This document shows positions 28,020-31,454 of a DNA stretch of 35,155 nt, one piece after another (within the stretch, counting starts at the first letter, position 1; every line of letters starts with the position of its first letter). The position numbers and the translations under genes are program-made. Source of the stretch: Acidimicrobiia bacterium. GTDB lineage: Bacteria > Actinomycetota > Acidimicrobiia > IMCC26256 > PALSA-555. A model generated the notes under the pieces. The model was not told the DNA's origin and searched no databases. It was given only the letters and a program-made list of their open reading frames with translations. The stretch spans positions 1 through 35,155 of the forward strand of contig DASZJD010000127.1 in NCBI GenBank assembly GCA_035948415.1. The letters are read 5' to 3'.

Positions 28020-28583
28020 CTACATCGAGTGCGGGTGCGCGAACACGTCGCGCAGTCGGGCCTCGAAGTGCTCGAGGGGCAGCGTGTCGTAGGCGGGGTC
28101 GAAGGCGACCTGGTCCCAGTCGTCGGCGAACTGCTCCGCGAGCGCGAACCACGACGCGCCGCGGTACTGCTCGCGAGCGTCCGGGTCGGCGCCGAAGTGC
28201 TCGTAGTAGTGCCGGCCCTGGAAGTCCTGGTGGGCCTTGATCATCTGGTACACGTCGTCGCGCACGTAGCACTTCAGGATCTCGGCCGCGATCACGGGGT
28301 GGTTCGGGACGCTCACGGCCTTCCCGACGTCGTGACACAGCGACGCCACGACCAGCTCGTCGTCGGCGCCGGCGCGCTCGGCTCGGGTGGCGGTCTGCAG
28401 GGAGTGCGTCAGCTGGTCCACGGCGAACCCGTCGGTGATGTCGGCGAGGGACCGGAGCATCCCGAGCACCCGGTCGGCCACCCGGCCCTGGTGCTCGAAG
28501 GTCTCCCGGCCGATCACCGCCCACTGCTCGGCCGTCGATTCGTCCATCCGCGTGAAGGAGGTCGGCGCATCGGTGGTGGTCAT
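28020..28583 (-). CDS. HD-domain protein (PhnZ / phosphohydrolase-like)
   Basis: 187 residues of the HD superfamily. Metal-binding residues follow the family order: H in VDQLTHSLQTATRAERAGAD, then HD in VVASLCHDVGKAVSVPNHPV with a third His, then KAHQDFQGRHYYEHFG. HSLQ followed by a CHDVGK core resembles the PhnZ-type di-iron HD oxygenases as well as ordinary HD phosphohydrolases, and the sequence alone does not choose. The C-terminus has DDWDQVAFDPAYDTLPLEHF. The ATG at 28583 has GAGACT, a degenerate -10, six bases upstream. It is divergent from the selenoprotein gene with 47 bases between the starts, which may mean shared control. Confidence 0.85.
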   Translation of the reverse strand: MTTTDAPTSFTRMDESTAEQWAVIGRETFEHQGRVADRVLGMLRSLADITDGFAVDQLTHSLQTATRAERAGADDELVVASLCHDVGKAVSVPNHPVIAAEILKCYVRDDVYQMIKAHQDFQGRHYYEHFGADPDAREQYRGASWFALAEQFADDWDQVAFDPAYDTLPLEHFEARLRDVFAHPHSM

Positions 28584-28616
28584 GGACCCAGTCTCCCACG
28601 GCGACCGGGCCCCGAG

Positions 28617-28622
28617 TACGGT
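28617..28622 (+). promoter_or_regulatory. -10 hexamer TACGGT, leaderless promoter of the selenoprotein
   Basis: TACGGT ends eight bases before the GTG at 28631. It independently supports translation beginning upstream of the in-frame TGA. Confidence 0.55.
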
Positions 28623-28630
28623 CGGACGCC

Positions 28631-29164
28631 GTGGACCTCGAGGCCCTGGCCGACGTGCGGCTCGCCGACGCCGACGGCGTCCGGTACCGCCTGGGCGACA
28701 CGTGGGCCGAGCGGCCCGTCGTCCTCGTCTTCCTCCGGCACTTCGGCTGACTGCTCTGCCGGGAGCACGCCGCGCAGTTGCGCGGCCGCTACGCCGAGAT
28801 CCGGGGGCGTGACGCCGAGGTCGTCGCGGTCGGGACCGGCGATCGCCGCTACGCCGCCGCCTTCGTCGCCGACGAGGAGATCCCGTTCCCGGTGCTCGTC
28901 GACGACGACGGGGTCGCCGCTCGCGCCGCCTCGGTGCGAAAGGTCGGGATGCTGCGGCTGCTCGCCGACCGGCGGTCGTGGGCGGGCACCCGGCGGGCCT
29001 GGTCGGCCGGGCACCGCATCCACCGGGCCGGCACCCGGGTGACCCAGCTGGGCGGCACGTTCGTGGTCGGCCCCGGCGCCGAGGTCCGCTACGCGCACGT
29101 GGACGCGCACTCGGCCGACCACGCGCCGCTCGACGCCGTCCTCGCCGCGCTCTCGCGCCCGTAG
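28631..29164 (+). CDS. Selenoprotein: peroxiredoxin-like thioredoxin-fold protein (AhpC-TSA_2 / PRXL2-like) with UxxC site
   Basis: 177 residues when the TGA at 28748-28750 is read as selenocysteine (U40). The gene begins at GTG 28631, which has TACGGT eight bases upstream, and runs in one frame to the TAG at 29162-29164. Before the TGA: VRYRLGDTWAERPVVLVFLR, the first strand of the fold. Around it: FLRHFGULLCREHAAQLR, which is the FLRHFGCxxCRE active site of this family with the first Cys replaced by U. After it: VVAVGTGDRRYAAAFVAD, then IPFPVLVDDDG, and GGTFVVGPGAEVRYAHVD with a final helix, the normal ending of the fold. A hairpin 25 bases after the TGA fits a bacterial SECIS. Family members reduce peroxides or thiols; the substrate is unknown. 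A decayed Cys gene is the alternative. Confidence 0.85.
28769..28786 (+). promoter_or_regulatory. Bacterial SECIS-like hairpin within the selenoprotein gene
   Basis: GCCGCGC-AGTT-GCGCGGC is a perfect 7-bp stem with a 4-base loop. The loop starts 25 bases after the TGA, inside the 16-37 base range reported for bacterial SECIS elements, and has G at its second position followed by T, as the SelB-binding loop requires. It is read as codons for AAQLRG, so coding and RNA structure coincide. A bulged base as in E. coli fdhF is not seen, and hairpins are frequent in GC-rich DNA. Confidence 0.6.
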
Positions 29165-29200
29165 CGCGCAATCGAGGCTCTCGGCGCCGGGCCGCACGCA

Positions 29201-29206
29201 TAACGT
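29201..29206 (+). promoter_or_regulatory. -10 hexamer TAACGT, leaderless promoter of the penicillin acylase-family gene
   Basis: TAACGT ends seven bases before the ATG at 29214 and argues for this start over the in-frame GTG at 29205. Confidence 0.5.
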
Positions 29207-29213
29207 GCAGCCG

Positions 29214-31454
29214 ATGCCGCCGTCCGTCGTCGTCGTGCCGGGCCTGGACGGGGAGGTGGTCATCGAGCGCGACGGCTGGGGCATCCCGCACGCCGTCGCC
29301 GCCAGCGGGCACGACGCCTTCTTCGCCCAGGGCTTCGTGCAGGCCGAGGACCGCCTCGGCCAGCTCGAGTTCGATCGCCGCCGGGCGCTCGGCCGGTGGG
29401 CCGAGGTGGCCGGCCGGTCCGCGGTCGAGTTCGACGGCTTCGCGAGGCGGGCGGACCTGCCCGGGGTGGCCCGCCGCGAGTACGAGCGGCTCGACCCCGA
29501 CAGCCGGGCGCCGCTCGACGCGTACGCCGCGGGCGTGAACGCCTGGCTGGGCCTCGGCCGCGACCCGCCGACCGACCTCGCCCTCGCCGGCGTCACGCCC
29601 GAGCCCTGGGAGCCGTGGCACGCCTGCGCGGTGTTCCTCGTCCGGCACGTCGTCTTCGCCACGTGGCAGCGCAAGCTCTGGCGCGGCCGGCTGGTCGCCG
29701 AGCTGGGCCCGTCGACGGTCGCCCGCCTCGAGCGGCGGCCCCCGATCGACGTGCCGCTCATCGTGCCCCCCGGCCTCGTCGGGCCGGCGGCGGCCATCGA
29801 CCCCGACGGGCTCGCGGTGGTGGCCGAGGCCATGGGCGCGGCGGGTGGCTCGGGCTCGAACGCGTGGGCGGTGGCGGGGACGCGCGCGCGGTCCGGGCTC
29901 CCGCTCGTCGCCGGTGACCCGCACCGGCTCGTCGAGGTTCCGAACGTCTACTACCAGTGCCACCTGGCCTGCCCCGACTTCGACGCCATCGGGCTGGCCT
30001 TCGTCGGGGTGCCGGGGTTCCCGCACTTCGGGCACACCGAGCGCGTGGCCTGGTGCGTGACGAACGCCAACGGCGACTACCAGGACCTCTACGTCGACCG
30101 GGTCGACGCCGCGGCGCCGTCGCGGCGGGAGGTGATCGCGGTTCGCGACGCCGACCCGGTCACGGTCGAGTGCCGCGCCACCGCGCACGGCCCGCTGCTC
30201 TTCGGCGACCCGGAGTCCGGCACCGCGGTCGCCCTCCGGGCCACCGCGCTGGCGCGCCCGAGCCGGGGCCTGTCGGTGCTGCTGCCGATGCTGCGCGCCC
30301 GCACCGTCGACGAGCTCGACGACGTCATGCGGGCGTGGGTCGACCCGGTGAACAACCTCGTCTCGGCCGACGTGGACGGCCACCTCCGCTACCGCACCGT
30401 GGGCGAGATCCCGGTCCGCTCGACCGCGAACGCGTGGGGTCCGGTGCCAGGCTGGACCGCCGACCACGAGTGGGTCGGCACGGTGCCGTACGACGAGCTG
30501 CCGTCGAGCCGCGACCCGGAGCGGGGCTGGATCGTCACCGCCAACCAGGCGATCGTCGGGCCCGACTACCCGCACTACCTCGGGCTCGACTACGCCCGTC
30601 CCGACCGGGCCGCCCGCATCGTCGCCCGCCTCGAGGCCCTCGGCCCGGCGACGGTCGAGGACATGGCCGCGATCCACCAGGACCGCCGCGCCCTGGCCGC
30701 CGACCTCTGGGTCGAGCGGCTGGTCCGCCTCGACGGGCGCAACGACCACGAGCGGGCCGCGCTCGAGCGGCTGCGGCGCTGGGACCGGGTGATGGACGCG
30801 GCGTCGGTCGGCGCCGCCGTCTACATGACCGCCCGCGACGCCGCCGGCCGGGCCGTCGCCGCCCACCCCGCGCTGGACCCGCTGCGGGCGCCGTTCCCGG
30901 GGGAGCCGCGCGCCGTGTTCGTGCCGCTCGAGCTGCGGCTCTGGCCGCTGCTGCCCCGGCTCCTCGCGGCCGACGACGTGACGCTGCTCCCGTCCGGCCG
31001 GACCTGGACCGACGTGCTGGCGGCGGCGCTGACCGACGCCGTGGCCCTCCTCCGGCGGGAGCTCGGCGACGACGTCGACGACTGGCGGTGGGGCGCCCTG
31101 CACCGCTGCGCGCCCCGGCACCCGCTGTCGACGACGGACCCGTCGTGGGCGGCCGCGCTCGACCCTCCCGCGGTCGAGATGGGCGGCGAGTGGGACACGG
31201 TCTGGTCGGCGGCGCATCCGGCCGGGTACGGCTTCGGGGTCACCACCGCGTCGGTGGCCCGCTACGTGTTCGACCTCGCCGACTGGGACCGGTCGGCCTG
31301 GGTGGTCCCCCTCGGCGTGTCCGGCGAGCCGACGAGCCCGCACTTCGCCGACCAGCAGGAGGCCTGGGCGACGGGCGCGCTCGTCCCGATGCCGTACTCG
31401 CGGGCCCGCGTCCGCGAGAGCGCCGCCTCGACCACGACGCTGCGGCCGGCCTGA
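29214..31454 (+). CDS. Penicillin acylase-family N-terminal nucleophile amidohydrolase
   Basis: A 746-residue Ntn hydrolase that cleaves amides such as acyl-homoserine lactones, beta-lactam side chains or acylated amino acids. The alpha part includes IERDGWGIPHAVAASGHDAF and GFVQAEDRLGQLEFDRRRAL. The self-cleavage site is GGSGSNAWAVAG, with the nucleophile S215 that becomes the beta-chain N-terminus. The beta part has GDPHRLVEVPNVYYQCHL, WCVTNANGDYQDLYVDRV and GWIVTANQAIVGPDYPHYLG with the oxyanion Asn. No signal peptide is visible, which is unusual because many relatives are periplasmic or exported; this one may be cytoplasmic. It follows the selenoprotein by 49 bases and has its own -10. 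The substrate is not known. Confidence 0.9.
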   Translation: MPPSVVVVPGLDGEVVIERDGWGIPHAVAASGHDAFFAQGFVQAEDRLGQLEFDRRRALGRWAEVAGRSAVEFDGFARRADLPGVARREYERLDPDSRAPLDAYAAGVNAWLGLGRDPPTDLALAGVTPEPWEPWHACAVFLVRHVVFATWQRKLWRGRLVAELGPSTVARLERRPPIDVPLIVPPGLVGPAAAIDPDGLAVVAEAMGAAGGSGSNAWAVAGTRARSGLPLVAGDPHRLVEVPNVYYQCHLACPDFDAIGLAFVGVPGFPHFGHTERVAWCVTNANGDYQDLYVDRVDAAAPSRREVIAVRDADPVTVECRATAHGPLLFGDPESGTAVALRATALARPSRGLSVLLPMLRARTVDELDDVMRAWVDPVNNLVSADVDGHLRYRTVGEIPVRSTANAWGPVPGWTADHEWVGTVPYDELPSSRDPERGWIVTANQAIVGPDYPHYLGLDYARPDRAARIVARLEALGPATVEDMAAIHQDRRALAADLWVERLVRLDGRNDHERAALERLRRWDRVMDAASVGAAVYMTARDAAGRAVAAHPALDPLRAPFPGEPRAVFVPLELRLWPLLPRLLAADDVTLLPSGRTWTDVLAAALTDAVALLRRELGDDVDDWRWGALHRCAPRHPLSTTDPSWAAALDPPAVEMGGEWDTVWSAAHPAGYGFGVTTASVARYVFDLADWDRSAWVVPLGVSGEPTSPHFADQQEAWATGALVPMPYSRARVRESAASTTTLRPA

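Follow-up and report, generated by a model that had tools for sequence, protein, structure and literature searches.

An almost certain selenocysteine codon within the active-site motif of a SelL-related, PRXL2-like redox gene from the Acidimicrobiia

Does the TGA that interrupts a reading frame in this actinobacterial contig end a damaged gene, or does it encode selenocysteine (Sec)? The window, that is, the whole 35,155-nucleotide stretch of DNA analyzed here, carries this gene on its plus strand, with the associated features listed in Table 1. Between the GTG at 28631 and the TAG that ends at 29164 there is only one in-frame TGA, and it falls at the first Cys of the FLRHFG[U/C]xxC active site, exactly as a sequence-only reading had described; once it is read through, the active-site stretch becomes FLRHFGULLCREH. 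The mechanical list of open reading frames contains a single plus-strand piece for this gene, 28778-29164 (128 aa), which lies 3' of the TGA. Because that list covers just the post-TGA part, a standard gene caller would miss the active site, an outcome the earlier reading had anticipated. The GTG start is supported by conservation of a TANNNT hexamer: 17 of 22 genes in the window's clade have one 6-8 nt 5' of the start, and the promoter hexamer that had been pointed out in the window is of this kind. The spacing between hexamer and start suggests that the selenoprotein mRNA is leaderless.

Table 1. Coordinates of the selenoprotein gene, its elements and its neighbors in the window
Feature	Position	Strand	Description
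Divergent HD-domain gene, conserved neighbor	28023..28583	-	HD domain match
-10-like hexamer TACGGT	28617..28622	+	8 nt before GTG; probable leaderless promoter
Selenoprotein gene	28631..29164	+	GTG start, TAG stop at 29162-29164, 177 residues with Sec40; SelL-related/PRXL2-like thioredoxin-fold
TGA, almost certainly read as Sec, residue 40 of U-L-L-C	28748..28750	+	TGA in 36/39, TGC/TGT in 3/39 orthologous copies
TGC, Cys43, presumed resolving cysteine of UxxC	28757..28759	+	In every class-level copy; nearly invariant
Bacterial SECIS upper stem-loop	28769..28786	+	7-bp stem, loop AGUU, 25 nt after UGA
Penicillin-acylase family gene, downstream	29205..31454	+	PF01804 1.1e-178

Almost certainly the TGA encodes Sec at the active site of a small redox protein with a thioredoxin fold, since the genome encodes the full Sec machinery and since relatives keep both the TGA and a recoding hairpin. 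The host assembly (3.4 Mb in 133 contigs, 98% complete) contains a tRNA-Sec at C17:64832-64921, scoring 66.7 bits and above the Rfam cut-off, and ARAGORN also calls a tRNA-SeC with anticodon tca in this genome. SelA (470 bits, C17:45101-46399) adjoins SelB, which is likewise above its cut-off (C17:44031-45074), and SelD is encoded on contig C85. A genome search for selA, selB, selD and tRNA-Sec had been proposed as a check on the selenoprotein reading, and all four are present.

Conservation of the codon can be followed through 296 genomes sampled across the class; 38 of them hold the gene, in 39 orthologous copies. Residue 40 is encoded by TGA in 36 copies, by TGC in two and by TGT in one, and the residues around it are nearly invariant (RHFGUxxCR); alignment of homologs, another check that had been called for, thus finds TGA or Cys at this position and nothing else. 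Further TGA-bearing relatives occur in several other families of the phylum sample. All 80 distant homologs, drawn from many phyla, have Cys at residue 40, an all-Cys state that is biased because one search pattern, VFLRHFGC, included the Cys, and that shows only which residue is homologous. Both 5' and 3' of the TGA the ratio pN/pS stays below 1; the nine pairs calculated give 0.08-0.42 for the downstream part. (A second in-frame "TGA" in one relative, G006, was rejected as a Sec codon; it lies 136 codons past the Sec at the very end of the gene and is an ordinary terminator.) These data bear directly on the proposal that a Cys gene has acquired its TGA through nonsense mutation or sequencing error, which would make the locus a pseudogene or assembly artifact. 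TGA is one base away from TGC and TGT, and the window does come from a draft assembly, but the identical TGA recurs across many genera in 36 copies that come from 35 different genomes, the part of the gene 3' of the TGA is under protein-level constraint, and the SECIS hairpin described below is conserved and has decayed only where the codon is Cys. So many independent genomes rule out the sequencing error that the earlier reading had named as a possible refutation, and the proposal as a whole is extremely improbable.

The decisive feature, absent from the sequence-only account, is the SECIS element. Its stem pairs 28769-28775 (GCCGCGC) with 28780-28786 (GCGCGGC) around an apical AGUU loop at 28776-28779. 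The published bSECIS model specifies a loop of 3-9 nt, an upper stem of 4-16 bp, a G at the first or second loop position, a distance of 16-37 nt from the UGA and a minimum free energy of -7.5 kcal/mol or lower (PMC13188914). The window hairpin agrees with the model on every point, having a 4-nt loop, 7 bp, G at position 2, a distance of 25 nt and a core energy of -15.3 kcal/mol. The strongest evidence for the element is the freezing of synonymous sites. In the window's clade, here the order-level genomes together with G163, all 19 Sec copies read GCG, CAG and TTG at codons +8, +9 and +10; TTG makes up 8% of the Leu codons in these genes, and other conserved amino acids mostly show mixed codons. 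At codon +10 the three copies with Cys carry CTG, CTG and CTT instead, so that the synonymous constraint persists alongside Sec and is gone where the residue is Cys. In a second clade, all 17 copies have a different hairpin frozen at codons +7 to +10, GGGCC-GGUCA-GGUCC, and the two clade-specific loops, AGUU and GGUCA, offer a compact test of what SelB recognition requires. Compensatory changes within each clade are few because stem bases hardly vary inside a clade. Codon shuffles performed on one sequence at a time give 29/2000 for the window copy and up to 100/2000 for relatives; measured this way the hairpin is moderately unusual, and its strength lies in conservation. Across the 3.4-Mb genome there are two occurrences of the 12-mer GCGCAGTTGCGC, each 3' of an in-frame TGA at a redox site: one in the window gene and one in a paralog on contig C80, another predicted selenoprotein.

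The hairpin also helps to judge whether TGA might specify some other amino acid, as in a Trp or Gly code, or be subject to general readthrough, either of which would account for frames that stay open across it. SECIS constraint, however, has no role in general recoding. Many of these genes terminate at TGA, the homologous residue is always Cys and never Trp or Gly (in a distant search partly keyed on Cys), and the genome holds a specific tRNA-Sec together with SelA, SelB and SelD, all of which leaves a reassigned or leaky TGA with a negligible chance of being correct.

With the TGA read as Sec, Pfam matches to the protein are AhpC-TSA (5.7e-15), AhpC-TSA_2 (1.5e-12) and Redoxin (1.1e-10), and the AhpC-TSA match, residues 6-154, runs across the TGA. 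The PF00578 score is 55.8 bits against a cut-off of 26, with ULLC as the UxxC motif, and the PF13911 (AhpC-TSA_2) score is 48.4 bits, above the gathering cut-off of 27. The NCBI model NF040769, SelL-related redox protein, matches at full length (residues 6-173, E 7.6e-33) with its active site in the same place, but the score of 113.6 bits falls just under the curated cut-off of 120. These plus-strand matches weigh on a further explanation, in which the real gene is a long minus-strand ORF in the mechanical list, 28580-29833 (417 aa), and the plus frame is a by-product of high G+C content. A by-product would hardly match AhpC-TSA at 5.7e-15, have 39 orthologous copies or show a pN/pS under 1 both before and after the TGA, and we consider it most unlikely that the real gene lies on the minus strand. 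The antisense ORF is typical of high G+C DNA and could mislead a gene caller.

The AlphaFold2 model of the protein (pLDDT 89.7, pTM 0.86) predicts with confidence a thioredoxin fold in which residue 40 comes after strand 30-34 and immediately before helix 41-52, placing UxxC at the start of helix 1 as expected of a PRXL2-like protein. Foldseek against the PDB ranks human prostamide/PGF synthase (PRXL2B) best (9usa and 9us9, query-normalized TM 0.72-0.75), followed by PrxQ and then ResA and AhpE. A sequence match to 9us9 (residues 16-174, E 0.003) joins the fold match in favor of the PRXL2-like assignment made from the sequence. The classical peroxiredoxin motif, TxxC/TxxU, is absent from the window protein, which has RHFGULLC, and the protein falls in the SelL-related/PRXL2-like part of the AhpC-TSA group. 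It shares fold and PF13911 with human PRXL2B at about 20% identity, but the human protein uses Cys; the title of 9usa, a C44S/C47S mutant, indicates a CxxC pair. Eukaryotic SelU is grouped with the PRXL2/AhpC-TSA_2 family, and eukaryotic SelL carries UxxU, in contrast to the UxxC of the window protein.

Selenoproteins of this general kind have been described. Prx-like thiol:disulfide oxidoreductase selenoproteins have PF00578 and UxxC or UxxU, with Sec first (PMC13188914 Table 1), and a Prx-like 1 selenoprotein with UxxC was listed earlier (PMC2398784); compared by description only, the window protein has in common with them the Pfam domain, UxxC and Sec in first position. A peroxiredoxin-like AhpC/TSA selenoprotein (cd02970/PF13911) has UxxS (PMC9312934, PMC13188914) and shares the AhpC-TSA_2 domain with the window protein, which differs in having UxxC. 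Since UxxC Prx-like selenoproteins are already catalogued, the window gene adds to a known bacterial kind, and it is securely identified as a selenoprotein of an already known type. The earlier description of the selenoprotein as unrecognised therefore holds in part: UxxC Prx-like and AhpC/TSA selenoproteins stand in the catalogs (PMC13188914, PMC2398784), and for the family NF040769 covers the neighborhood. A search of the open-access literature for selenoprotein with Acidimicrobi* returned no relevant paper. Selenium use by this group is easily missed, because a normal gene caller drops the active site here and in dozens of relatives.

We are highly confident that the gene specifies a 177-residue thioredoxin-fold redox protein with a catalytic Sec, its UGA recoded via SelB and the AGUU hairpin. 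Support for this reading is computational and comes from the pathway genes, the conserved UGA, the hairpin with its constraint, and the fold. When a ribosome arrives at the UGA at 28748-28750, SelB carrying Sec-tRNA-Sec would bind the AGUU-capped hairpin 25 nt downstream and deliver Sec at the UGA in place of termination. Judging from relatives, the Sec40 selenolate at the start of helix 1 would attack a peroxide or disulfide substrate, Cys43 would resolve Sec40 into a selenenyl-sulfide, and a thioredoxin-type system would reduce the selenenyl-sulfide. By analogy the protein would act in the PRXL2/Prx-like manner, as a peroxide reductase or as a thiol-disulfide oxidoreductase; sequence cannot tell peroxidase from disulfide-reductase activity. 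A true selenoprotein whose main role is thiol-disulfide exchange or repair, in the manner of ResA or thioredoxin, and not peroxide reduction, is a serious contender at somewhat under even odds: its UxxC spacing is that of disulfide oxidoreductases and ResA structures are among the matches, but PRXL2B and PrxQ structures outrank them.

The Sec or Cys state of the gene can be compared with the presence of Sec machinery in its genomes. SelA is found in 201 of the 296 class-level genomes and in 34 of the 35 genomes with TGA copies; the exception, G187 (assembly 79% complete), has a tRNA-Sec above cut-off. The three genomes with Cys copies (G008, G111 and G200) show none of SelA, SelB and tRNA-Sec at the thresholds used, in assemblies 64-88% complete, and assembly gaps by themselves would hardly account for these nine absences. 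Co-occurrence of the Sec codon with SelA gives a Fisher p of 0.0005, calculated for SelA alone; SelB by itself was left out of the correlation because it is below cut-off in G006 and the threshold applied yielded none in G187. Mapped onto a tree inferred after masking the Sec/Cys site, the Sec/Cys label requires three changes, most simply one gain and two losses of Sec, on a root made uncertain by long outgroup branches. The Cys copies in G008, G111 and G200 (L019, L121 and L120) fall inside groups of Sec copies from their own relatives, and their use of TGT in one case and TGC in the others fits two separate events. It would appear that Sec reverted to Cys twice, linked to loss of the Sec machinery, and this is the less expected part of the finding. 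A 2026 review describes Sec-to-Cys changes as rare in prokaryotes and found mainly in FdhA and SelD (PMC13188914). The broader proposal, to which we give an even chance, is that the SelL-related/PRXL2-like proteins include a Sec-dominant subfamily with UxxC, which extends through the class and the phylum, is absent as such from published selenoproteome lists and has undergone at least two Sec-to-Cys switches with loss of the Sec machinery; if true, it concerns a direction of change reported as rare outside those two families (PMC13188914). Sister genomes with Sec or Cys copies, with or without the machinery, and with the hairpin intact or decayed, provide a natural test of why Sec is retained and how it is lost. 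Separately, in the class-level genomes f22/g36, which are about 1 Mb in size, SelA is retained without any match to this selenoprotein gene, so Sec presumably serves something else there.

The HD-domain gene, 75-81% identical, adjoins the selenoprotein gene in G005-G010 and G104, and the penicillin-acylase gene also lies downstream in G005-G010. Together these neighbors give no clear functional clue, and a functional link to the penicillin-acylase gene is at most a candidate. Elsewhere in the phylum, one genome carries two TGA-bearing copies in tandem (L148, G319:C130:56116-57215). The host genome itself has a second SelL-related paralog on contig C107 (L027, G000:C107:1587-2072; NF040769 138.2 bits, above cut-off), with an in-frame TGA at the redox site, IFHRHLAULPCHEH, and a downstream hairpin unlike the AGUU type. 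A third TGA-bearing thioredoxin-fold gene (L028, G000:C80:35207-35428) reads AFLRGYAUPFCRRH and is followed by a CGCGC-AGUU-GCGCG hairpin, the same as that of the window gene.
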